Shown: positions 120-40,889 of the stretch, one piece after another
Numbering within the stretch: the first letter of the stretch is position 1
Layout of the letters: every line of letters starts with the position of its first letter
IMG/VR virus record: IMGVR_UViG_3300030233_000267
Location: 1-41,128 of that record
Length of the DNA: 41,128 bases
Source of the DNA: a virus
Reading direction: 5' to 3' (one strand)
The notes under the pieces: generated by a model
What the model was told of the DNA's origin: nothing
The model's input: the letters and a program-made list of their open reading frames with translations, nothing else
The model's database searches: none
Translations under genes and position numbers: made by a program

Positions 120-596
120 ATGAGCAGCCGTCCGACCACAGAACAGGACCGGGCGGCGATCAAGGCCGCTGTGCGCCGGTTGATACGCCAGGCCGGCGGG
201 CAAACAGAAGCCGCAGCCTGCACACGGGTGGGGCAGCCCGCGCTGTCCCGATATGGCTCGCCCAACCACCCGGACGACCAGGTGCCGGTGGATATCCTGA
301 TGGACCTGACGATGGACGCGGACGACCCCGACGCGATCCGCACGCTGTGCCGGCTCGCCAATGGCGTTTTCGTGCCGCTGCCGCGTGCACAGGATTGCGT
401 GACCAACTGGCCGGCGGCCGTTGGGGCCTCGGTCCGGCGCGGGGCGGAAGCCGCCGAGGCGATCTGCACGGCGCTGAACGACGATGGCCGGGTGACGGTG
501 GAAGAAATCGAGGATCTGGAAATTCTGGACAAGCTGTCAGCGGCGATCGAGGCGCTGGTGGTGTTGCAGAGCTATGCAAAGTCGGTGGAGGGATGA
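120..596 (+). CDS. Phage regulatory protein, CII-like
   Basis: 158 aa. The N-terminal third (residues about 9-45) is a helix-turn-helix-like segment with the pattern GGQTEAAACTRVGQPALSRY, typical of DNA binding. The C-terminal half is acidic and helical, with the layout of the phage regulatory protein CII family (an ANGVFVPLP stretch, then an ALNDDGRVTVEEIEDLE helix). It is the first gene of the early run, next to other putative regulators, which fits control of the lysogeny/lysis choice or early transcription. The start ATG at 120 follows a 119-bp leader holding an inverted repeat. The DNA-binding role is inferred from pattern and family resemblance; the target is unknown. Confidence 0.6.
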   Translation: MSSRPTTEQDRAAIKAAVRRLIRQAGGQTEAAACTRVGQPALSRYGSPNHPDDQVPVDILMDLTMDADDPDAIRTLCRLANGVFVPLPRAQDCVTNWPAAVGASVRRGAEAAEAICTALNDDGRVTVEEIEDLEILDKLSAAIEALVVLQSYAKSVEG

Positions 597-1480: not shown

Positions 1481-1677
1481 GGACGCAAACCCGGCCGGTG
1501 GCCAAAGGCACACGCGATCCGCGCTTTCCCGATCACCTTCAAACCGTGATCCGGCTGGAGGACGAGCTTTTCGCCGAAATACGGGAGCGGGCGATCGTTG
1601 AGGAAACAAGCTTCTGCGAGCAGGTGCGCATCCTGTGTGAATGGGGGCTGGAGTCGGCGAAGGAGGCTGAGGGGTGA
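1477..1677 (+). CDS. Small protein, ribbon-helix-helix-like
   Basis: 66 aa. The pattern TVIRLEDELFAEIRERAIVE followed by ETSFCEQVRILCEWGLE (about residues 23-60) resembles a ribbon-helix-helix fold of the Arc/MetJ type: one strand, then two helices. Its start overlaps the previous stop (ATGA) and its stop overlaps a GTG at 1674, so it belongs to the early operon. The GTG is presumably the original start of the interrupted gene downstream. A DNA-binding role is an inference from predicted fold only. Confidence 0.5.
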   Translation: MRTQTRPVAKGTRDPRFPDHLQTVIRLEDELFAEIRERAIVEETSFCEQVRILCEWGLESAKEAEG

Positions 1678-1766
1678 GGGCGCCGGCGTCCTTTCTGGAC
1701 GGGCAGATCACAAGTGAATACTATTTCCCTGTTCTCATAAGCGGAAGCAGCCCTGTGCAACGGAGG

Positions 1767-3029
1767 TCAACGCTCCGAATCGTGAGCGCGGCGCAGCCAT
1801 TCATCAAACGGCAGTTCATCAGGGTAAACGACTTCCAGAAAACGGCGCTTTTCTCCACTGCGTCCTGCATCGAAACGTCGCAAAGCACTGTGCCATTCGG
1901 CCGGCACTCCTTTTGGTGGCATGTCATCCCACGCCCAGGCCTCCTCGATTCGTTCTTTGTTAATTTTCTTCGCCCCCCCGAGGCGGGCGTTGGAAATGTT
2001 GGCATTTGTGAGTTTGGCATCATTCAAATCGGTTGTGCCAATTTCAGCAGAGGTCAAATCAGTTTCGTAAAATTCTACGTTCACAACCTTTGTTCGAACG
2101 AAACTGGCGTTGCGAAGCTTAGCGAACGAGAAGTTGGCGTGGTAACAATTTGCGTCATCAAGAATTGCATCTGTCAGATTTGTTCTGTTCATTTGCGTAA
2201 AGCTGAGGTTCGCCGAATTCAATTTTGCTCTGCTGAGATTAAACGATTTCAGATCAACAGAAGACAGGTTGGCACCAGACAAATCTGGCCTCCAATCCTC
2301 TTGAATTTCCGACCATTCTGCCAACTTCACGCTAGATCTCAGCCAGTTTGCGCTTTCAAGAGCTTTGAGCACATCGCGTTGCAATGGCTCAAAACTTGGA
2401 CGTTCTATTGCGGAATTGTCCTCTTCGATTTCTTCCGCGCGCTTCTGGGAGTGCTCCCTCACAAAATCGTAAAGCAGATCCAGGACCAGATAATACGTTT
2501 CGTCAGGATCGCTCCAAACCAGCTCCCTGAGGGCATATATGCCGGCAAGGCGGACGGAGACATCCTCGCTTTCCAGCATTTGTGCACCTTTTTGATATCG
2601 ATCTATGACCAGGCCCTTTTCGGAAAGCTTATGCGCCTTATGGGCGACCAGCGACCGCCAAAGAGCAACTCCTCCAGCGAGTATGCCAAGCGGTATCACG
2701 CCAAGGTTTCGGATGTTCTCGAGAATAGTTTGTGGTTTCTCCGCTCCGAAGTGGACAAGAAATTCCGAGGGGCTTTTTTCTATGGCAAGCCATCCGATGT
2801 TCCAGCCATGGAGCATCAACGCCCAAACAAATGGTCCAACGATTACAAAAGTCGCGCACGTAATCATGATTGCTGCAGTTGCTTGAAGCCAAGTGATGTG
2901 GCGCCACCGGCGATAAAGCCATTTATTGAAGCGCCGCCATTTTTTCTGGAAGCGGCTTCGTGTGATCACCAGCCACAACTGAGCGCGGCCGGCAATACCG
3001 GGAAGCACAACTTTACTTTTCCGCTGCAT
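1767..3029 (-). CDS. Pentapeptide-repeat membrane protein 1
   Basis: 420 aa, antisense to the phage replication operon. Basic N-terminus (about 1-50), a membrane segment at about 51-73, a second near 108-126, then a helical block (VSVRLAGIYALREL, DETYYLVLDLLYDFVREHS). This block matches a widespread class of membrane-anchored pentapeptide proteins. Pentapeptide repeats of the A(N/D)LXX type follow at about 250-350 (ANLSSVDLKSFNLSRAKLNS), then a C-terminal domain with AWAWDDMPPKGVP. The expected topology is a membrane anchor with a cytoplasmic right-handed beta-helix. It is visibly more AT-rich than its neighbours, paralogous to the gene at 3869-5005, and replaces the 5' half of a sliding-clamp gene. 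No good ribosome site precedes the ATG, so the true start may lie further in or the 5' end may be trimmed. Function is unknown; superinfection exclusion or defence is a hypothesis. Confidence 0.85.
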   Translation of the reverse strand: MQRKSKVVLPGIAGRAQLWLVITRSRFQKKWRRFNKWLYRRWRHITWLQATAAIMITCATFVIVGPFVWALMLHGWNIGWLAIEKSPSEFLVHFGAEKPQTILENIRNLGVIPLGILAGGVALWRSLVAHKAHKLSEKGLVIDRYQKGAQMLESEDVSVRLAGIYALRELVWSDPDETYYLVLDLLYDFVREHSQKRAEEIEEDNSAIERPSFEPLQRDVLKALESANWLRSSVKLAEWSEIQEDWRPDLSGANLSSVDLKSFNLSRAKLNSANLSFTQMNRTNLTDAILDDANCYHANFSFAKLRNASFVRTKVVNVEFYETDLTSAEIGTTDLNDAKLTNANISNARLGGAKKINKERIEEAWAWDDMPPKGVPAEWHSALRRFDAGRSGEKRRFLEVVYPDELPFDEWLRRAHDSER

Positions 3030-3059
3030 ATATCAAGCATCCAATCTTCTACTAGGCAA

Positions 3060-3848
3060 GGTTGCAATAGAACAGCTCGAGTGTTCGCGCTCAAGGGAAT
3101 TGGAGGTGTGGTGGCGACGGACGGTCACCGCCTCATTGCCCACGATTATACGCATAGCTTCGAGTGCTACCTGATCCTGCCGCGCCATGTCGTCCACACC
3201 GTTCTGGGGATGGTTGAACCGGAAGAGATCCTCTTCAATCAGAGTTATATGGAGTTCCGCTTTCCGGGCGGAAATCTCCTGCGCAGCAAGCTGATCGACG
3301 GCACGTTCCCGGACTGGAACCCAGTCGTTCCGGCCTACCCGGAGGACACCCGGCGGCTGAGCTTTGCCACGCTCGAAATGAAGGCGGCGCTCGACCGCAT
3401 GAGCAGGCTTGCCGGCTCGCGCATCCGGGGGGTATCCAACAGCGCGAACGCGAATGGAGACCTTCTCTTCGTCACCATGAACGGGATGGATGGCAAGGAA
3501 TGCGCGGAGCGGATTTCCAGCGGGGCGGCCGAGCACTGGCCGGGCGGCGCGGAGGTCTACGGCTTCAACGCTTCCTATCTGGCCGATCTGTGCAGGTTGT
3601 ACCGGCATGCGGCGCTGATATCGTTTATCGCGCCGGATGCAGGCAGCCCCACGCTCGTCGGTCCCGATGAAACATGGGGCCAGACCGTGCTGATGCCGAT
3701 GCGCGTCGTCGGCGACAAGTTGTTCCGCACCGCGCTGCTCGAGTTCGCCATCGCCGCGAACGCCAAGGTGTCCGGGGGAGGCGACTGCGTGACCGTGATC
3801 ATTGCGGGCACCGACCCGGCAGGCCAGATGATGGAGGCGGCCGAATGA
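3060..3848 (+). pseudogene. dnaN: DNA polymerase III beta clamp, 5'-truncated
   Basis: About 262 codons of a DnaN-type sliding clamp, domains 2-3 only. Visible landmarks are VVATDGHRL, SKLIDGTFPDWNPVVP, VYGFNASYLADLC and the C-terminal VLMPMRV, matching the bacterial clamp signatures VATDGHRL, KLVDGRFPDY, GFNVSYVLDVL and YVVMPMRL. Some 150 residues (domain 1 and the start of domain 2) are missing: similarity begins near 3075, directly beside the pentapeptide cassette. No start with a ribosome site precedes the conserved part; the nearest candidate is GTG at 3081. The reading frame stays open back to a GTG at 1674 that overlaps the previous gene, probably the original start. A ring-forming clamp needs all its domains, so this is likely inactive, unless translated as a fusion across antisense sequence. 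Confidence 0.65.
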
Positions 3849-3868
3849 CCGAAAGTCAGGAAGCCCAA

Positions 3869-5005
3869 CTATTGCGGTTGCCAAGGCAGCGGATCAACCA
3901 TGTCAGGCTCGCCGATTTTATCTGCTTCCAGGTAAGCCCTACGGAACTCCTCGTTTCTGCCTGGTGGATAACGTCTCCAAAACATTCCCCAATCGCTATT
4001 CAATCCAATGGGAACTCGATCGGACCAAGTCCATGCGAACGCGAGCTCGTCTCTTTGGTTGAAGTTGGGAGAAAACTTAGCTCCAGATATTTCGGCATTC
4101 GAAAAAATTACGCCTTCAAGATCCGAAGTGCCAAAATTGACGCCCGAAAGATCGGCCTCAAAGAAAGAGACACTGTTCAGTTTTCCTTTGGCAAGCAAAG
4201 CGCCTTTCATTCGGGCCCTGTCGAGTTGTGCGCCTTCAAATTTGCATTCGCGACAAATTGCTCCTTTAAAAGAGGCGTCCGACAGAATTGCACGTCTGAA
4301 GCACGAGTCTTCGATCCACATGTTGGAAAAGTTTACGCCCGACATCGAACAATCATCGAATATGGCTCCCTTTATTCTGATTGTCTGCGTTCCTTCCAGT
4401 TCGACCCAGTCAACTATTTGCTTACGCATAGCTGTGACCGCCCGGAGAGCGGCGATAGCGCTGTCGTCAATTGGCTGGTGGATAGGATATCCTTGCTGAC
4501 GGAAGTGGTTCGTAGATTTTCGTTGTTTCGATCGCTCTACTGCAAATTCAATCAATATTCCGGATATTATCAGGTAGTATTCGTCCGGAAGGGAGAGCGC
4601 CAATTTTCGAAGGGATGCTATGCCAGCATTTCGTTGAATTTCTTCCTGGCTGCTCAACAGCTTTACACCTTCTTGAAAACGTTGATTTTGCAGTCCAGCT
4701 TCAGCAATCGAAAGTTGTCCTTGGCTGAAATTCGCCTGCTTGTGAGCGGTGTAGGATCTCCAAATACCGAGTGGAAGTGCAATTGCTCCAAGCAAGAGCA
4801 ATCCGAGGTTTCTAAAAACACCAGATCTATTCTGTTCGCCTCCCCAATACTCCAAAGTCCATTCGATGCCAAAGTCACGCAGTACGAGTGCCAGAACTCC
4901 CAGCAGAACCAGCAAAAAAACCATTCCGGCAACAAATGCTTCAGGAGGTTCAAAGCCAAATTTTCTTTGAAGTTCCTTCAGTCTCAATTTGGAAAGCTTG
5001 TTCAT
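3869..5005 (-). CDS. Pentapeptide-repeat membrane protein 2
   Basis: 378 aa, a divergent paralogue of the product of 1767-3029 with the same architecture: membrane segments at about 24-45 and 69-88, the shared GIWRSYTAHK segment, a helical block (RNAGIASLRKLALSLPDEYY), pentapeptide repeats at about 205-290 (GVNFSNMWIEDSCFRRAILS) and a C-terminal AFAWTWSDRVPIG matching AWAWDDMPPKGVP of the first copy. GGAAG five bases before the ATG is a reasonable ribosome site. It lies antisense between the clamp remnant and the primase. Its stop is only 24 nt inside what looks like the start of another plus-strand gene (ATG at 3845), so it too seems to have interrupted a gene. Function is unknown; a membrane-located exclusion or defence role is a hypothesis. 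Confidence 0.85.
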   Translation of the reverse strand: MNKLSKLRLKELQRKFGFEPPEAFVAGMVFLLVLLGVLALVLRDFGIEWTLEYWGGEQNRSGVFRNLGLLLLGAIALPLGIWRSYTAHKQANFSQGQLSIAEAGLQNQRFQEGVKLLSSQEEIQRNAGIASLRKLALSLPDEYYLIISGILIEFAVERSKQRKSTNHFRQQGYPIHQPIDDSAIAALRAVTAMRKQIVDWVELEGTQTIRIKGAIFDDCSMSGVNFSNMWIEDSCFRRAILSDASFKGAICRECKFEGAQLDRARMKGALLAKGKLNSVSFFEADLSGVNFGTSDLEGVIFSNAEISGAKFSPNFNQRDELAFAWTWSDRVPIGLNSDWGMFWRRYPPGRNEEFRRAYLEADKIGEPDMVDPLPWQPQ

Positions 5006-5096
5006 CGGGCTTCCAGACCAAATTTTCTAAATAACAAAGATATTGAAACAGAACTGTCTCTGGCTGCCAACTGCAAATGGTTCGGGAGTTTATGAC

Positions 5097-6314
5097 ATGA
5101 AACGCTACTCCGAGTCCGAGAAGGAGCGGGTGAAGGAGAAGAACCCGATCTCGACCATCATCGGACAGCATGTCACGTGGGACCGTGCCAAGACCAATGC
5201 CGGCACCGGTGACTATTGGGCGTGTTGCCCGTTCCATCTGGAAAAAACGCCGTCGTTCCACTGCCTGGATCGGGAGCACACCTACAAGTGCTTTGGATGC
5301 GACGCGACGGGCGATCAGTTCACGTTCCTGCAGGAAATGGAGGGTCTCAGCTTTGTCGAGGCGATGGAGCGGCTTGGTGGCAAGGCCGAAGCGGAGCCGC
5401 TGACGCCTGAGCAGATCGCGGCCGAGGAAGAGAAAAAAGCCCGGCGCCGCCGCGAGCAAGAGGCGATTGCCAAGCAGAAGCGGCGGGAGGAGATCCGCAA
5501 GGCCTGGCGCTATTGGGGCTGGGGCGGCCGTGTCGCCGGCACGGAGGGTGCCGGCTATCTGCGCGGGCGTGGCCTGTTGCCGATGCCGGTGCCTTTGCCG
5601 TTGCGGTTTCATCCGCATTTCAAATACTGGCACCAGAGGCCGGTGGACGAGGGGGAGCGGAAAAAGGAGTTTTACGTGCTCTTTTCCGGCCCTGTGATGA
5701 TGGCCGCGATCACCGGGCCGGACGGTGGGTTTCTCGGTCTTCACGTCACTTATTTCGATCCGGCGCGCCATGGCAGGAAGATCGAGGTCGAGGACCCTTA
5801 TGGTGACCCGGACGAGGTCGGCAATCGCCCTCTGGTGGTGCCGAAGAAGATCCGCGGCTCGAAACGCAATGCCTCGATCAAGCTTTGGCAGCCGCCGGAG
5901 TTCGACCGGCTGGTGATCGGGGAGGGGTGGGAAACCACGGCCTCCGTTCTGCTGGCCGAGCATGGCACGGAGCGGTTTGCGCGGACCGCCTATTGGACCT
6001 CGATCGACCTGCAATCCATGGGCGGCAAGGCTGTGAAAACTATTTCGCATCCTTGGCTCAAGAACAAAACGGGAAAACCGCTGAAAGTGCCCGGGCCTGA
6101 GCCGGACCTGAATGATCAAAAGGCGCTAACCATTCCGGACCATGTCACCGAGGTGTTGCGGCTCGGAGATGGCGACAGTGACCGGTTCACGGCTGAGCAG
6201 GTGATGGCCCGGGCGGACGCCCGTTGGGCGCGGCCCGGCCGCACCCAGCACACCGCCTGGGCGCCGGAGGGCGAGGACTTCAACGATATTCTGATGGGGG
6301 TGGCGCGTGGCTGA
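5097..6314 (+). CDS. Phage primase (CHC2 zinc finger + Toprim)
   Basis: 405 aa. An N-terminal DnaG-type CHC2 zinc finger has ligands C44-x2-H47 and C65-x2-C68 (CCPFHLEKTPSFHC then YKCFGCDATGD). A charged coiled linker follows at about 105-135. A Toprim-like domain has VIGEGWETTASVLLAEHG at about 272-290, where the Glu would bind metal, and EDFNDIL near the C-terminus is typical of this group. It synthesises RNA primers for phage DNA replication. ATG 5097 is chosen because the family begins near KNPISTIIGQHV, and a stop lies just upstream at 5093-5095. The stop overlaps the GTG start of the helicase, so the two are translationally coupled. Confidence 0.88.
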   Translation: MKRYSESEKERVKEKNPISTIIGQHVTWDRAKTNAGTGDYWACCPFHLEKTPSFHCLDREHTYKCFGCDATGDQFTFLQEMEGLSFVEAMERLGGKAEAEPLTPEQIAAEEEKKARRRREQEAIAKQKRREEIRKAWRYWGWGGRVAGTEGAGYLRGRGLLPMPVPLPLRFHPHFKYWHQRPVDEGERKKEFYVLFSGPVMMAAITGPDGGFLGLHVTYFDPARHGRKIEVEDPYGDPDEVGNRPLVVPKKIRGSKRNASIKLWQPPEFDRLVIGEGWETTASVLLAEHGTERFARTAYWTSIDLQSMGGKAVKTISHPWLKNKTGKPLKVPGPEPDLNDQKALTIPDHVTEVLRLGDGDSDRFTAEQVMARADARWARPGRTQHTAWAPEGEDFNDILMGVARG

Positions 6315-7965
6315 GAAAAAGAAGGCGGCCGAGGGTGCCAGCCCCAATGTTCACCAGAAGCTTCTGGACGAGCTGACCGGCAAAGAAGTGGCGGAAACCG
6401 AGGCCGAGGCAGAACAGGGCGAAAGGGGGAGATCGCCCTCCGGGGACACCGAGAAAGCCGGGAAAAAGGGAGTTGAGCAGATCCGCGAGATCATCGCGCG
6501 TGCCAGCCAGCCCGGCGCCCTGGAGGATGATGACGATCATCTGGCCGGAGCTGAGGACGACACCGGGAATGACACCGGCGCCAGCGCGCCTGTGCCCCAG
6601 GAGTGGGGCTATTCTCTGGAGAAAATGAACGCCGAATGGTCGCTGGTGCTGATCGGCTCGAAGGTCGCCATGGTGCGCGAACAGCCGCACGCCAAGGAAG
6701 AGGACCGGGTGCGTGTCGTCCAGGTGGATTCCTTTCACAAGCTTTACAACAACAAACCGACGCAGGTGATTGGCGCGGATGGCAAGATCAAGACAATCAG
6801 CTGGTCGAAGCGCTGGGAAAGCGAACGGCACCGCCGGCAGTTCGACGGCATCGAGTTCTGGCCCAATCCGGAGGGTGCGCCGGGCACGCGGGGGTATCTG
6901 AACCTCTGGCAGGGGTTCTCGTTCCGTCCGGATCCGGATGCGGGCTCGTGGACGGTGCTGAAAGACCATCTGCTGACCAACATCTGTGACGGGGACCGGG
7001 ACCTCTACATGTGGGTGTTCGCCTGGTTCGCGCATATGCTGCAGCGGCCGCGCGAGCGGCCGGGCACGGCGATCGTCATCCGAGGGCTGATGGGATCGGG
7101 AAAATCGCTGTTGGGCGAGATCATGCGCAGCCTGATCGCGCCGCATTTCTTCCAGGTTGACGATCCGCGCTATATCACAGGCCAGTTCAACGCCCATATG
7201 AGCGCGTGCCTGCTGCTGCAGGCGGAAGAGGCGGTGTGGGCAGGTGACAAGGTGGCGGAGGGCCGTCTCAAAGGCCTGATCACCTCCAAGACGCAGATGA
7301 TCGAGTCCAAGGGTGTCGACCCTTACCGGCTCGACAATTTCGTGCGCATCATGATGACCTCGAACGAGGATTGGGTGGTGCCGGCCGGAAAGGACGAGAG
7401 ACGCTATTGCGTTCTCGATTGCGCCCCGAACGTGAAGGAAAATCACGACTATTTCGGGGAGATGATGGAAGAGCTGGGGAATGGCGGCCGACAGGCGCTG
7501 CTGGCGGATCTGCTGTCGTTTGACCTTGCCACGGTCAACCTGAGGAAGATCCCGCGCACAGGCGCGCTGCTTCAGCAAAAGCTGCGCTCCCTGGACAGCG
7601 TCGATCAGTTCATTTTCGAGCGGCTTTGTGAGGGGACGCTGCTCAAGGCCGATGACACGTGGCAGCCGTTCGGCTCCATCGTCAAGCAGACGCTCTATGA
7701 GGAGTATCTCGCCGCAGCCGACAAGATCGGGATCAAGCGCCGCGCGAGCCTGAATGAATTCGGCAAATCGGTTGCCCGGTTGATCCCGGGGCTGAAGGAC
7801 GCCCGGCCGCGCAATGAGGGGCGCAAGCGGATCTTTCTCTTTCCGGAGCTGGCCGAATGCCGGAGGGGCTTTGAAGAGGCCGTCGGCCAGGCCGTCGACT
7901 GGCCGGTGGAGGAGATCGAACCGCCCTATCAAAGCGGACAATCCGCATCGGGAGAGACAGGATGA
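6307..7965 (+). CDS. Phage replicative helicase, DUF5906-like
   Basis: 552 aa. After an acidic, low-complexity N-terminus of about 90 residues, a P-loop GLMGSGKS (about residues 260-267) opens an NTPase domain. It has QAEEAVWAGD (Walker B-like acidic pair) and the MMTSNEDWVVP and KDERRYCVLD segments (sensor and arginine-finger region) found in DUF5906 and SF3-like phage helicases. It probably unwinds the origin and works with the primase encoded immediately upstream. GTG 6307 overlaps the primase stop by 8 nt. A 334-bp gene-free repeat region follows, which fits an origin next to the initiator helicase gene. Confidence 0.82.
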   Translation: MAEKKKAAEGASPNVHQKLLDELTGKEVAETEAEAEQGERGRSPSGDTEKAGKKGVEQIREIIARASQPGALEDDDDHLAGAEDDTGNDTGASAPVPQEWGYSLEKMNAEWSLVLIGSKVAMVREQPHAKEEDRVRVVQVDSFHKLYNNKPTQVIGADGKIKTISWSKRWESERHRRQFDGIEFWPNPEGAPGTRGYLNLWQGFSFRPDPDAGSWTVLKDHLLTNICDGDRDLYMWVFAWFAHMLQRPRERPGTAIVIRGLMGSGKSLLGEIMRSLIAPHFFQVDDPRYITGQFNAHMSACLLLQAEEAVWAGDKVAEGRLKGLITSKTQMIESKGVDPYRLDNFVRIMMTSNEDWVVPAGKDERRYCVLDCAPNVKENHDYFGEMMEELGNGGRQALLADLLSFDLATVNLRKIPRTGALLQQKLRSLDSVDQFIFERLCEGTLLKADDTWQPFGSIVKQTLYEEYLAAADKIGIKRRASLNEFGKSVARLIPGLKDARPRNEGRKRIFLFPELAECRRGFEEAVGQAVDWPVEEIEPPYQSGQSASGETG

Positions 7966-29815: not shown

Positions 29816-30607
29816 CTAAGGATTGGATCGGTCGATGTTGTGGATCGCGTCAGCGAGTTTGAGCAAATCGGCAGCGTAGAAGCCTGCCGCATTGATGCAG
29901 TTTGTCTCAAGCATCTTGAGGCCAGTTTCCGTGCGGCAGACGTCCATGACATATGCGCGGGCGTATCTAGGGTTCAATTTGACCAACCGCTCTGCAAATT
30001 CAGCGGCGTCTTGATCAATCTCAGGCCGGTAGACGACGCGTGCCCCTTCCTTATAGAGCGAATAGGTGCGGATAACGTCGTTCACAATCCATATTCGCCA
30101 CTCCTTAAATATGCGCGTGGGCTGCGTCAGCATGAGCTCGGTATCGTGACGCAATGACCCTTTCGGGATCTCGTCCTCTTCAAGGGCTAATACGCGCTCT
30201 GCCAAATCGGCGATTTCGGAAGTATAGCGTACCTTGCCAGGTTCCTCTTTGCTGTCGTCAACCGGACGCATGAACCACTGGCGTTCCTCTTTCGGGAGAT
30301 GGTCAGGGATGCCTCTTAAAGAGAGAAACAAAGAATCAGCACCGTTCAGGAGATATGGATGCCATGGTTTCTCATGGACGAATGGCCGGATCTTGAAAAC
30401 GCCTGGGCTTAGGCCTTCTCGCCGCGCATATCGCCATAGTGTATAAGAGCCAAACAAGACCACGGCATCTCGGTCATCAATCACAGGTTCAGGCTGAAGT
30501 TCACCGACGAATGGAACAACTTTGTGCCAGGTGTACGGGATGCCAAGGCGGTCCAAGGCACCTGCCAGTTTCTCAGTGTCCTCAAAGTGCTGCAAAATCC
30601 ACTGCAT
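29816..30607 (-). CDS. ATP-grasp domain protein (moron)
   Basis: 263 aa, antisense to the tail operon. It reads as an ATP-grasp enzyme, DUF4343-like. The N-terminal MQWILQHFEDTEKLAGALDR and LGIPYTWHKVVPF form a pre-ATP-grasp domain, and FGSYTLWRYARREG and RPVDDSKEEPGKVRY follow. Late segments KEWRIWIVNDVIRTYSLYK, VVYRPEID and MLETNCINAAGFY supply the expected ATP and Mg-binding Glu/Asn residues. ATP-grasp enzymes ligate a carboxylate to an amine or thiol; the substrate here is unknown. The start ATG 30607 lies 1 nt after the stop of a small HTH gene, so the two form a coupled pair. It is more AT-rich than the flanking tail genes. Confidence 0.75.
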   Translation of the reverse strand: MQWILQHFEDTEKLAGALDRLGIPYTWHKVVPFVGELQPEPVIDDRDAVVLFGSYTLWRYARREGLSPGVFKIRPFVHEKPWHPYLLNGADSLFLSLRGIPDHLPKEERQWFMRPVDDSKEEPGKVRYTSEIADLAERVLALEEDEIPKGSLRHDTELMLTQPTRIFKEWRIWIVNDVIRTYSLYKEGARVVYRPEIDQDAAEFAERLVKLNPRYARAYVMDVCRTETGLKMLETNCINAAGFYAADLLKLADAIHNIDRSNP

Positions 30608-30608
30608 T

Positions 30609-30776
30609 TCATGCGCTCGTTTTAACAATGGCGCGCAGGATGTTTTTTGAGATGCCAAGCTCGCGGGCGTTCCAACGATAGCTGCGACCTTCATCCACAA
30701 ACTTCAAGACCTTCGGCGCGTGCCGGTCTGATTTAGGCCGCTCACCCGCTTGCCGGTCCATCTTTTTGAAATTCAT
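30609..30776 (-). CDS. Small HTH protein, resolvase-tail-like
   Basis: 55 aa beginning MNFKKMDRQAGERPKSDRHA. The second half, SYRWNARELGISKNILRAIV, is a helix-turn-helix close to the C-terminal DNA-binding domain of serine resolvases/invertases, but the catalytic domain is absent. A clear GGAG lies 6 nt before ATG 30776 and the stop is 1 nt from the ATP-grasp start, so it may be a functional small regulator, not debris. The alternative is a resolvase remnant left by insertion of the cassette. Confidence 0.55.
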   Translation of the reverse strand: MNFKKMDRQAGERPKSDRHAPKVLKFVDEGRSYRWNARELGISKNILRAIVKTSA

Positions 30777-38563: not shown

Positions 38564-38681
38564 TTCCAAATCTCTCCGATCTTGACGCGGGAGATCCAGA
38601 GCGTTGGAGCGCTCCGAATACCGGCAGTCCGCCAAGACTATACGCCGGCCGATGTCTGTCTAGCATTCCATCGCCCCCGCG

Positions 38682-38701
38682 ATCAGGCCCGAAGGCCTGA
38701 T
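38682..38701. repeat. Stable 8-bp hairpin before methyltransferase
   Basis: ATCAGGCC (38682-38689) and GGCCTGAT (38694-38701) form a perfect stem; on the minus strand the loop is TTCG, an exceptionally stable tetraloop. It stands in the 207-bp divergent gap between the minus-strand membrane protein gene and the plus-strand methyltransferase. No T-run follows, so it may be an operator or RNA structure, not a terminator. Confidence 0.4.
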
Positions 38702-38770
38702 TCTGCACTGCCGCAGAAGAGGGCGTTATCGGAGTGCTTCAACCTGGAGTCAAATTTTGTCTGTGAGGCG

Positions 38771-39565
38771 GTGCCTCGCAAACTCCGCATCCTGGATCTC
38801 TTTTCCGGGATCGGAGGGTTTTCGCTTGGCCTGGAGCGCACGGGCGGTTTCGAGACGGTCGCCTTTTGCGAGATCGAGCCCTGGCCGCAACGGGTCCTCA
38901 GGAAACACTGGCCCGACATTCCCCTTTATGAAGACGTGCGCGAGGTGACCCTTGACCGACTTTCTGCCGATGGAATTACCGGAATTGACGTCCTCACGGG
39001 CGGGTTCCCGTGTCAGGATCTCTCGGCCGCGGGTCGCAGAGCAGGAATTGGCGGCGAGCGTTCAGGGTTATGGAGTGAAGTGCACCGCCTTATTGGCGAG
39101 CTTGGACCCCTATACGCAGTTATGGAAAACGTCTGGAACCTCCTTGCTGGCCCCAACGACCAACCAGGCGGATGGTTCGGACGTGTTCTCGCGGACCTGG
39201 CCGAGGTCGGGTATGATGCGGAATGGCACTGCATTCCAGCTGCGGCGGTTGGTGCCGACCACCACCGGGAAAGAGTCTGGATTATTGCCTACCCCGCTGA
39301 AGACCGATGGTTTCGCGATCGGTCAATTTTCACTGGAAACACAGTTGCGCGCCGAGTCGAACGGTTACCAGAGGCGGTTCTACGCCCCCTTGATTATTCA
39401 GGGATACTCGGTCGGGGAAATCTGCCTGACGTGCGAAAAGATGCTCGGCTATCCGGAGCGGTGGACCGAATTGGAGCCGTAGGCAACACGGTCCAGGTGC
39501 AGATCCCGCAGCTGATCGGCGAGGCGATCCTGAGGACGGAGCGAAAAAAGCGGTTAATTGATTGA
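38771..39565 (+). CDS. DNA cytosine-5 methyltransferase
   Basis: 264 aa from GTG 38771. C5-methyltransferase motifs appear in order: I DLFSGIGGFSLGLE (residues 9-22), IV GFPCQDLSAAG with catalytic C81, VI MENV with E119, VIII HHRERVWIIAYP, and X GNTVQVQIPQLIGEAI (about 238). The segment between VIII and X is only about 60 residues, so the target-recognition domain is very short for the family (most phage forms exceed 300 aa). The start is uncertain: the frame is open upstream to 38582 and GTG 38771 has a poor ribosome site. It probably methylates phage DNA against host restriction; no partner nuclease is visible. A second frame overlaps it from 38952 to 39482. Confidence 0.82.
   Translation: MPRKLRILDLFSGIGGFSLGLERTGGFETVAFCEIEPWPQRVLRKHWPDIPLYEDVREVTLDRLSADGITGIDVLTGGFPCQDLSAAGRRAGIGGERSGLWSEVHRLIGELGPLYAVMENVWNLLAGPNDQPGGWFGRVLADLAEVGYDAEWHCIPAAAVGADHHRERVWIIAYPAEDRWFRDRSIFTGNTVARRVERLPEAVLRPLDYSGILGRGNLPDVRKDARLSGAVDRIGAVGNTVQVQIPQLIGEAILRTERKKRLID
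38952..39482 (+). CDS. Overlapping +1-frame protein within methyltransferase gene
   Basis: 176 aa in the +1 frame relative to the methyltransferase, wholly inside it. TTG 38952 follows GAGGTG with 4 nt spacing; ATG 38970 is an alternative. The sequence carries features I associate with a phage protein group often annotated near C5 methyltransferases: LLASLDPYTQLWKTSG, FSRTWPRSGMMRNGTAFQL, then ESGLLPTPLKTDG and a C-terminal MLGYPERWTELEP. WKTS lies opposite the ENV motif and WPRSGMMRNG opposite the VGYDAEW segment, so the group may have arisen by overprinting. A methyltransferase 'shadow' with no product of its own is the competing reading. Confidence 0.4.
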   Translation: MTDFLPMELPELTSSRAGSRVRISRPRVAEQELAASVQGYGVKCTALLASLDPYTQLWKTSGTSLLAPTTNQADGSDVFSRTWPRSGMMRNGTAFQLRRLVPTTTGKESGLLPTPLKTDGFAIGQFSLETQLRAESNGYQRRFYAPLIIQGYSVGEICLTCEKMLGYPERWTELEP

Positions 39566-39947: not shown

Positions 39948-40889
39948 TCAAAGTCGCTCAATCACCACCAACGCCGTTGAAACACCGGTTCCACTGCCCT
40001 TGAAACTGCCCTCGGGCAGATCCTCGAACCAGCCATCATGTGCCGCCACGATGTTGCGGAACATGGCCGCTCGTTTGGTCTGACGCGTCGGCGTGGCGCC
40101 GGACAGCACCGACACCAGCTTGCCGCCTTCCTTCAGCCAGCGCAGCGCCTGGAGCACGTGGATAATGTCCTGTTCGCGTTCGAACGGCGGGTTCATCACC
40201 ACGAAGTCGTAGACCGGCCGCGGCTCGGGTGCGAGGAAGTCGCGGCCCTCCAGCTCATAGCCCTTCAGCTCAAGGATCTCGCGCAAGGCGGGCGCGATCT
40301 CGAAGGCGGAGAGCTGTGCGCGTGGGTGGTGATCGGCGATGTAATCCAGAATGGCACCGCTGCCGGCGCCGGGCTCCAGCAGTTTGAACGGCGTGTCCGG
40401 CAAACCGATTGCCGCGACCATGCGCTCGATCATCGGAACCGGTGTGGAGAAGAAGCCCGGTATCTTCTTGAACCGGACATCCTCCAGCTTGCGGCGCAGG
40501 TCTTCAGCGGCCTTGCGCTCGCCAGCGTCGTTGTCCTGGATGAGATCCCAGAGGAGACGGGCCTCCAGCGTTTCGCTTGCCGGTCTGCCGGTCTCGATCG
40601 GTGCCGTGTAATACCCGCCATCATGTTTCATTTCGGCCCGTGTCAGTTTGTGCACGGCCGTTTTCGTGGTGATCCGCGCAAGGATCTCCGGAACGGTCCC
40701 GCTTGAATGCAAATCGGCCAGCTTCCGGAGGGCGCGTTGCGTTCGCTCCAGGTGGAGCCCGTCGAGGCGGGCGCTGGCAGCCTCACGGGCGCGTTTCGGC
40801 GTGTTGGCGAGGCGATCTGCAAACTTGTGGTCAATCTGCGGCTGCAGCTTGTCTGCCATCGTGTTCAGTCGAATTGCGAGCTTGCTCAT
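39948..40889 (-). CDS. SAM-dependent methyltransferase, NPPF type
   Basis: 313 aa. A helical N-terminal domain (about 1-135; LAIRLNTMADKLQPQIDHKF, KTAVHKLTRAEMKHDGGYYT) precedes a class I methyltransferase fold. FKLLEPGAGSGAILDYIADH (motif I, about 168-187) binds SAM, and YDFVVMNPPFEREQDIIHV (motif IV, NPPF) matches amino-methyltransferases acting on adenine (N6) or glutamine. STPVPMIERMVAAIGL just before motif I is typical of DNA adenine methylases in mobile elements. GGAAAG lies 5 nt before ATG 40889. It may modify phage DNA; the target site is unknown. A strong terminator ends the gene. Confidence 0.8.
   Translation of the reverse strand: MSKLAIRLNTMADKLQPQIDHKFADRLANTPKRAREAASARLDGLHLERTQRALRKLADLHSSGTVPEILARITTKTAVHKLTRAEMKHDGGYYTAPIETGRPASETLEARLLWDLIQDNDAGERKAAEDLRRKLEDVRFKKIPGFFSTPVPMIERMVAAIGLPDTPFKLLEPGAGSGAILDYIADHHPRAQLSAFEIAPALREILELKGYELEGRDFLAPEPRPVYDFVVMNPPFEREQDIIHVLQALRWLKEGGKLVSVLSGATPTRQTKRAAMFRNIVAAHDGWFEDLPEGSFKGSGTGVSTALVVIERL

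Follow-up and report, generated by a model that had tools for sequence, protein, structure and literature searches.

Antisense cargo genes opposite stop-free plus frames in a phage replication operon

The DNA examined here (the window) is the IMG/VR record IMGVR_UViG_3300030233_000267, a complete virus record covered over all of its 41,128 bases. Within its replication operon two genes, A and B, run antisense to their neighbors, and the question raised by this locus is how an operon can carry genes on its opposite strand and still be expressed beyond them. The main feature of the locus, which the first-pass annotation had not seen, is that the plus strand opposite A and B is free of stop codons. 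Both genes, like other inserts described below, are ambigrammatic, i.e., the reverse frame is open over nearly the whole gene and three codons are avoided. From this sequence pattern we consider it likely that A and B are ambigrammatic cargo that keeps the operon covered by ribosomes against the termination factor Rho.

Two antisense genes and their open complements

Two open reading frames (ORFs) of the plus strand, here called relay ORFs, are open across the entire antisense genes, ending at 3848 and 5095, which is far beyond chance (Table 1). Since the relay frames are codon-aligned with the cargo, a plus-strand stop can arise only from a TTA, CTA, or TCA codon in the cargo. These codons, the reverse complements of the stop codons, are missing from A and B, although A-ending codons are otherwise common in the cargo. 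The plus-strand starts proposed earlier, GTG 1674 and ATG 3845, are present, each overlapping the stop of the gene before it, and relay ORF B stops 1 nucleotide (nt) before the ATG of the primase-like gene. From the stop at 596 to position 7965, the chain of plus ORFs leaves an untranslated gap of 0.

A and B had been described as diverged antisense paralogues with a common domain order of membrane helices, a helical block, a pentapeptide β-helix, and an AWxW motif, and pairwise alignment together with structure prediction of A upheld both the paralogy and the architecture. The proteins are 28% identical over 288 amino acids (aa; BLASTP, E 2e-34), and both match the pentapeptide repeats of PF00805 (A, 7.5e-18, 64.2 bits; B, 4.2e-17, 61.8 bits; cut-off 20.2). 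The AlphaFold2 model of A (mean predicted local distance difference test score 73) has long helices at residues 11–84 and 102–152, a helical block at 157–202, and a coil of single strands at about 249–355; most of its matches in the PDB are proteins with pentapeptide repeats or designed solenoids. The motif reads AWAW in A and AWTW in B. As had also been noted, both genes are more AT-rich than the phage, with GC contents of 0.50 (A) and 0.47 (B) versus about 0.60 in the surroundings.

Table 1. Features of the window discussed in the text.
Feature	Position	Strand	Description
Cargo gene A	1767..3029	minus	Pentapeptide-repeat protein with N-terminal membrane helices, 420 aa; TTA/CTA/TCA 0 versus ~21 expected
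Cargo gene B	3869..5005	minus	Diverged paralogue of A, 378 aa; TTA/CTA/TCA 0 versus ~27 expected
Relay ORF A	1674..3848	plus	724 aa; GTGA overlap with preceding gene; codon-aligned complement of A, then in-frame clamp remnant
Relay ORF B	3845..5095	plus	416 aa; ATGA overlap with clamp stop; spans complement of B
Clamp 5' end, probable remnant	1752..1790	plus	QRRSTLRIVSA versus IQRRSTLPILSA in L091; overlaps last codons of A; short match, by eye
DnaN-like sliding-clamp remnant	3063..3848	plus	Central and C-terminal domains; N-terminal domain missing
Primase-like gene	5097..6314	plus	Directly downstream of relay ORF B; presumably primase-like, from its motifs
Primase-helicase family gene	6307..7965	plus	Relatives annotated DNA primase / DUF5906
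CII-like regulator	120..596	plus	Its stop is the start point of the plus-ORF chain
Antisense tail-region gene (internal control)	29816..30700	minus	phrog_7313; complement not open

The clamp remnant is 46% identical to a longer gene in L091, a relative described below, and its Pfam clamp domains are weak (E 0.012 and 0.019). Two genes near the right end of the window, at 38582–39565 (plus) and 39948–40889 (minus), match DNA-methyltransferase PHROGs.

Codon usage of nested and non-nested cargo

A scan with the primase-like protein found three close relatives, L090–L092 (L002–L004 with longer flanks), hosted by the family of Stappia stellulata, which we take to be Stappiaceae. In all three, antisense genes occupy the corresponding operon opposite an open plus frame. 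Pentapeptide-membrane genes occur in L091 and L092 and unrelated antisense genes in all three, several of the latter with membrane segments (by eye). In L093, two antisense genes lie beneath a single plus ORF of 870 aa, and further antisense inserts with an open plus frame are present in L094, L095, L115, L116, and L117. Patterns built from A, B, and the clamp alone gave no viral relative, whereas the primase-like gene did; tblastn against 50,697 phage records returned partial matches only, none covering 80% of the query. Relatives of the primase-helicase were found in 10 of 87 genomes of the family (E ≤ 1e-60) and 9 of 397 of the order (E ≤ 1e-90). Another 80 contigs of Rhizobiales and relatives, at 40–54% identity, were taken as host primases and served solely as the source of a taxonomic center (L084).

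Homologues of the cargo were then collected with an alignment of the pentapeptide-membrane family (A4), the other strand being disregarded. They were found in 30 of the 87 genomes of the family (E ≤ 1e-15) and, at E ≤ 1e-25, in 8 of 397 genomes from the order, 7 of 372 from the class, and 4 of 249 from the phylum, supplemented by one viral scan. Loci from the family scan were analyzed down to L161 (E 3.8e-19), below which the rows are mostly repeat-only. The 23 of these homologues that are nested in plus-strand early operons contain no TTA, no CTA, and two TCA in 8536 codons; the next rarest sense codon, TGT, occurs 41 times. From the usage of A-ending codons, 449.9 would be expected instead of two. 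When calibrated by the ratio of 0.64 obtained from 11 non-nested relatives with GC content at third codon positions (GC3) < 0.70, the expectation is 290, and the Poisson P(≤2) is 5e-122, a figure that treats codons and genes as independent, which is not entirely true. In the 18 non-nested relatives, 134 such codons were observed versus 251.4 expected. Of ten proteins that flank the cargo homologues, eight match PHROGs for replication initiation, primase, CII-like, or methyltransferase proteins, and two have no match.

Several genes stand outside these counts. L176, L202, and L185 are ambiguous and were set aside (4 such codons, 49.0 expected). The non-nested set does not include L207, L211, and the second L215 gene, which have none of the codons (4.7, 8.4, and 6.7 expected) at a GC3 of 0.75–0.89, outside the range of the calibration set. 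The nested gene at L093 7069–8247, also with zero such codons, is not among the 23, and L139 yielded no full ORF.

The avoidance is specific to the codons and to the frame. Nine inserts have no TTA, CTA, or TCA, though GAA outnumbers GAG (160 versus 57) and AAA outnumbers AAG (98 versus 66). Eighteen nested inserts were picked for their open plus frame, six of them belonging to the 23 as well; their aligned frames contain 0 stops, compared to 298 and 153 in the remaining two antisense frames. Even at the minimum over all synonymous codings, those two frames keep 58 and 26 stops in total, although one or the other could be cleared completely in a few individual genes; that the aligned frame is used throughout fits the finding that the other two cannot, in total, be opened synonymously. 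The same pattern holds for an unrelated second family of cargo, whose 12 distinct genes were collected among the retrieved loci with a profile of the L095, L115, and L117 proteins: 11 lack the three codons, and the L182 gene has three, which all fall outside the relay ORF in an N-terminus that is probably predicted too long.

In these phages, minus-strand genes that lie outside the operon, including the repressors, do use TTA, CTA, and TCA. So do classic antisense phage genes, with observed/expected counts of 9/11.2 for sieB of lambda, 20/22.1, 52/48.0, 47/47.9, and 19/20.0 for tin, old, fun(Z), and orf30 of P2, and 24/34.6 for wzy-beta of D3, which indicates that the estimator is sound and that these genes are not ambigrammatic. 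Ordinary codon bias or chance, in that high-GC hosts use few of these codons and complements are partly open for the core plus genes of this phage too, therefore has a negligible probability, being rejected by the A-ending codon usage of the AT-rich cargo, the minus-gene controls, the non-nested homologues, and the classic phage genes.

The antisense tail-region gene of the window contains 6 of the three codons versus 13.3 expected. It is AT-rich, lies between tail genes of the late region, and represents a second, non-ambigrammatic cargo gene of this phage. A universal rule for antisense phage genes was rejected on the basis of this gene and those of lambda, P2, and D3. In Rhizobium phage 16-3 (L222 37067–37693), the annotated genes p070 and p071 overlap almost fully on opposite strands; they are a possible but weak case, as their counts, 1 of 5.3 and 0 of 4.9 expected, are not significant.

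Operon continuity and competing explanations

Over 28 loci, the best chain of plus ORFs has a gap of 0 in 24 and of 10–28 nt in four. The search was permissive in that ORFs of about 30 codons sufficed and starts could lie anywhere from −60 to +120 nt; the chain of L198 began at its own relay ORF and carries little weight, and those of L095 and L185 use many short ORFs. When inserts at eight loci were reshuffled synonymously (60 times each), the observed gap was never kept in seven, and in L117 it was kept in 6.7%. The best chain across the antisense tail gene of the window has a gap of 68 nt, and two non-nested homologue regions gave a gap of 113 nt in one and no chain in the other. Most relay ORFs terminate in a stop/start overlap with the following gene. 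The TCA of L184 is the relay ORF's own stop and that of L203 sits before the relay start, beneath the upstream gene; thus, neither breaks a relay.

A probable course of events is as follows. A temperate phage would have acquired A and B in antisense orientation within its early (replication) operon, and their synonymous codons would have been purged of TTA, CTA, and TCA, the complement becoming one stop-free, codon-aligned frame joined to its neighbors by overlapping stop and start codons. With the operon on, ribosomes would traverse the insert and make a filler polypeptide, and the ribosome-covered transcript would escape Rho termination, so that the downstream primase and helicase genes would stay expressed; once the operon is shut off in the lysogen, the cargo's own strand would serve for its expression. 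Untranslated antisense RNA is a target of Rho, and C-richer RNA favors this factor. The plus-strand GC skew is about −0.065 in the inserts and +0.12 in the next genes, the insert RNA thus being C-richer. Continuous ribosome cover against Rho polarity would account for frames that are open over their full length, for the stitching, and for the confinement of the pattern to early operons. The sequence itself shows the open frames, the missing codons, and the stitched ends; translation of the filler, Rho as the main agent, and cargo expression during lysogeny are what we infer.

The principal competitor is translational coupling alone, in which the downstream ATGA or GTGATG starts would need an upstream ribosome and Rho would play no part. 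Coupling would explain the stop/start overlaps seen in most relay ORFs. However, for coupling a short ORF near the insert's end would suffice, and openness over 250–500 codons argues for continuous coverage; moreover, purine-rich stretches precede some of the downstream starts themselves, such as GGGAG before 5097. We regard coupling alone as unlikely, and what is selected is better fixed than why; polarity is put first and coupling second.

A coat of ribosomes could instead shield the antisense RNA from RNase or double-strand cleavage, with no role in transcription. Cargo and operon transcripts would indeed be complementary, and the available text of two papers on narnaviruses describes the same codon signature (PMC6884476, PMC8155312). 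Yet stitching at both ends would be unneeded for RNA protection alone, and other antisense phage genes do without an open complement, which makes this explanation improbable.

It is very improbable that there are two overlapping functional genes at each site, with the plus ORFs encoding real proteins, despite the length of the ORFs, their start codons, and their position in the operon. The only close pair of cargo genes, L090 8694–9893 and L116 10060–11253, is 65% identical (0.75/0.83/0.53 at the three codon positions). Their fourfold sites, which are first positions of the plus codons, are 52% identical, compared to 49% in the neighboring primase-like gene, i.e., they vary as in an ordinary gene. 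Furthermore, some plus ORFs consist of broken gene ends and filler: the clamp 5' end is fused in frame to filler in L090, and probably also in the window, and in L092 the 5' end of a methyltransferase is joined in frame to the clamp 3' end. Relay ORF B has no Pfam match, and unrelated cargo families are equally open. The fourfold sites of this one pair and the fusions, which speak against genes coding on both strands, argue that only the absence of stops is selected; the plus product appears unconserved, and selection seems to act on openness and not on a second protein.

Some observations weigh against these conclusions. The plus-frame identity of the L090/L116 pair, 0.448, exceeds the saturated expectation of 0.312 and would speak for a second protein, although such an excess is to be expected with third positions short of saturation. 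Nested and non-nested genes were told apart by eye from gene lists, with the open frames already seen. An automatic rule, based on the longest ORF within 2.5 kb on each side and applied at GC3 < 0.70, separates them poorly (12 of 13 versus 17 of 34 genes with 0–1 codons, Fisher p = 0.06), which we put down to the longest neighbor often being antisense cargo or a spurious ORF. GC-rich genes such as L207 and L211 may have open complements through codon bias. The complement of the antisense tail gene is not open; hence, the rule does not hold throughout this phage. L092, L117, and L182 have gaps of 28, 10, and 26 nt. In L202, a true internal stop interrupts the relay, which restarts 21 nt later; we read a nearby protein as transposase-like. 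L176 has three such codons and is continuous only via three overlapping plus ORFs, giving no chain when started outside the operon.

With these points weighed, ribosome cover against Rho remains the preferred reading. We lean slightly towards a wider one, a cassette system of temperate phages in one bacterial order whose operon admits only inserts with an in-phase, stop-free complement and in which ribosome flow would replace antitermination, such as the N antitermination used by lambda in the operon of sieB. If true, the synonymous codon choice of the cargo would be dictated by the opposite strand.

Cargo turnover and comparison with known systems

The first-pass annotation had left a choice between two captures and an old duplication. 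In a midpoint-rooted tree, read without support values, A groups with L092 and B with L094, which favors two captures; A and B look like separate captures and not the sisters that a duplication would have produced. In four related prophages, the cargo at one site is 26–32% identical beside an adjacent upstream gene of 84–95% identity, which indicates that cargo has been exchanged or diversified. Non-nested genes fall among nested ones in the tree; thus, the open-complement property was probably gained or lost more than once. Several unrelated types of prophage carry cargo homologues antisense within their early operons, in agreement with the earlier proposal of phage-borne cargo (a moron). Non-nested relatives exist as well, so that the chromosomal homologues named there as speaking against such cargo are found in part.

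A near-identical 22 nt sequence precedes the primase-like start in L092 (before 10001), L115 (before 11046), and L117 (before 11619), beside differing antisense cargo, and may mark an exchange junction. In L178 (12706–14751) and L179 (12944–15118), numbered with the pentapeptide gene on the minus strand, plus ORFs of 681 and 724 aa span two tandem antisense genes without the three codons.

Among the cargo proteins tried against Pfam, A, B, and the L003 protein matched pentapeptide repeats and the others had no match above the cut-off; nine cargo proteins had no match above noise to PADLOC models. As a guess from the predicted structure and the turnover, the cargo might act in the lysogen while anchored in the membrane, possibly to exclude phages.

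If the proposed reading is true, these would be, as far as could be found, the first ambigrammatic genes in DNA phages or bacteria. It would reveal a way of placing genes on both strands without antitermination, make the Rho polarity cost of antisense insertions measurable in evolution, and provide a sequence test for hidden antisense cargo (membrane proteins and possible defense genes) that gene callers may lose to a long plus ORF. In the literature covered, which did not extend to most subscription papers or to any bioRxiv preprint, no phage or bacterial gene was found to be reported as ambigrammatic; judged from titles and the beginnings of abstracts, papers using the term concern RNA viruses or viromes. 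To our knowledge, no kind of system is known that stitches ambigrammatic cargo into operons.

Accessory genes opposite nearby lytic genes are familiar from lambda sieB, P2 tin, old, fun(Z), and orf30, and D3 wzy-beta. Unlike the cargo described here, those genes have ordinary levels of TTA, CTA, and TCA, and most of the P2 genes lie, by annotation, between operons and not inside one. The noncontiguous operon tha/ith of Staphylococcus aureus phage 80alpha is closer in layout: according to the available part of its description, an antisense gene is nested in a phage operon and the two strands are mutually exclusive (PMC11087260). A and B are likewise nested antisense between genes of one operon, judging by the plus-ORF chain on both sides. 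However, that part of the description mentions no stop-free complement, and in that phage it is the inhibitor that is nested, the defense gene being part of the main operon (PMC11087260). For bacterial antisense overlapping genes, i.e., two long ORFs on opposite strands, the accessible text asks whether both proteins function (PMC7457138), whereas the plus product here appears unconstrained except for lacking stops.

The closest parallel in codon usage is that of the ambigrammatic narnaviruses. As far as the accessible text of these papers goes, their codon-aligned reverse frame is kept open by avoiding UUA, CUA, and UCA, its product is argued not to be a functional protein, and translation itself is proposed to matter (PMC6884476, PMC8155312, PMC8316113). 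Protection of the RNA by ribosome coating has also been proposed for them. The cargo uses the same codon trick as, e.g., Culex narnavirus 1. Yet narnaviruses are small RNA genomes in eukaryotes with a gene for an RNA-dependent RNA polymerase, whereas the cargo is exchangeable, belongs to several families, including pentapeptide-repeat proteins, and is stitched by stop and start codons into operons of DNA phages. Operon continuity would moreover supply a testable reason for the open frame, which in narnaviruses is still debated. Collectively, we rate the codon trick itself as already known from narnaviruses and the stitching of ambigrammatic cargo into operons as new.

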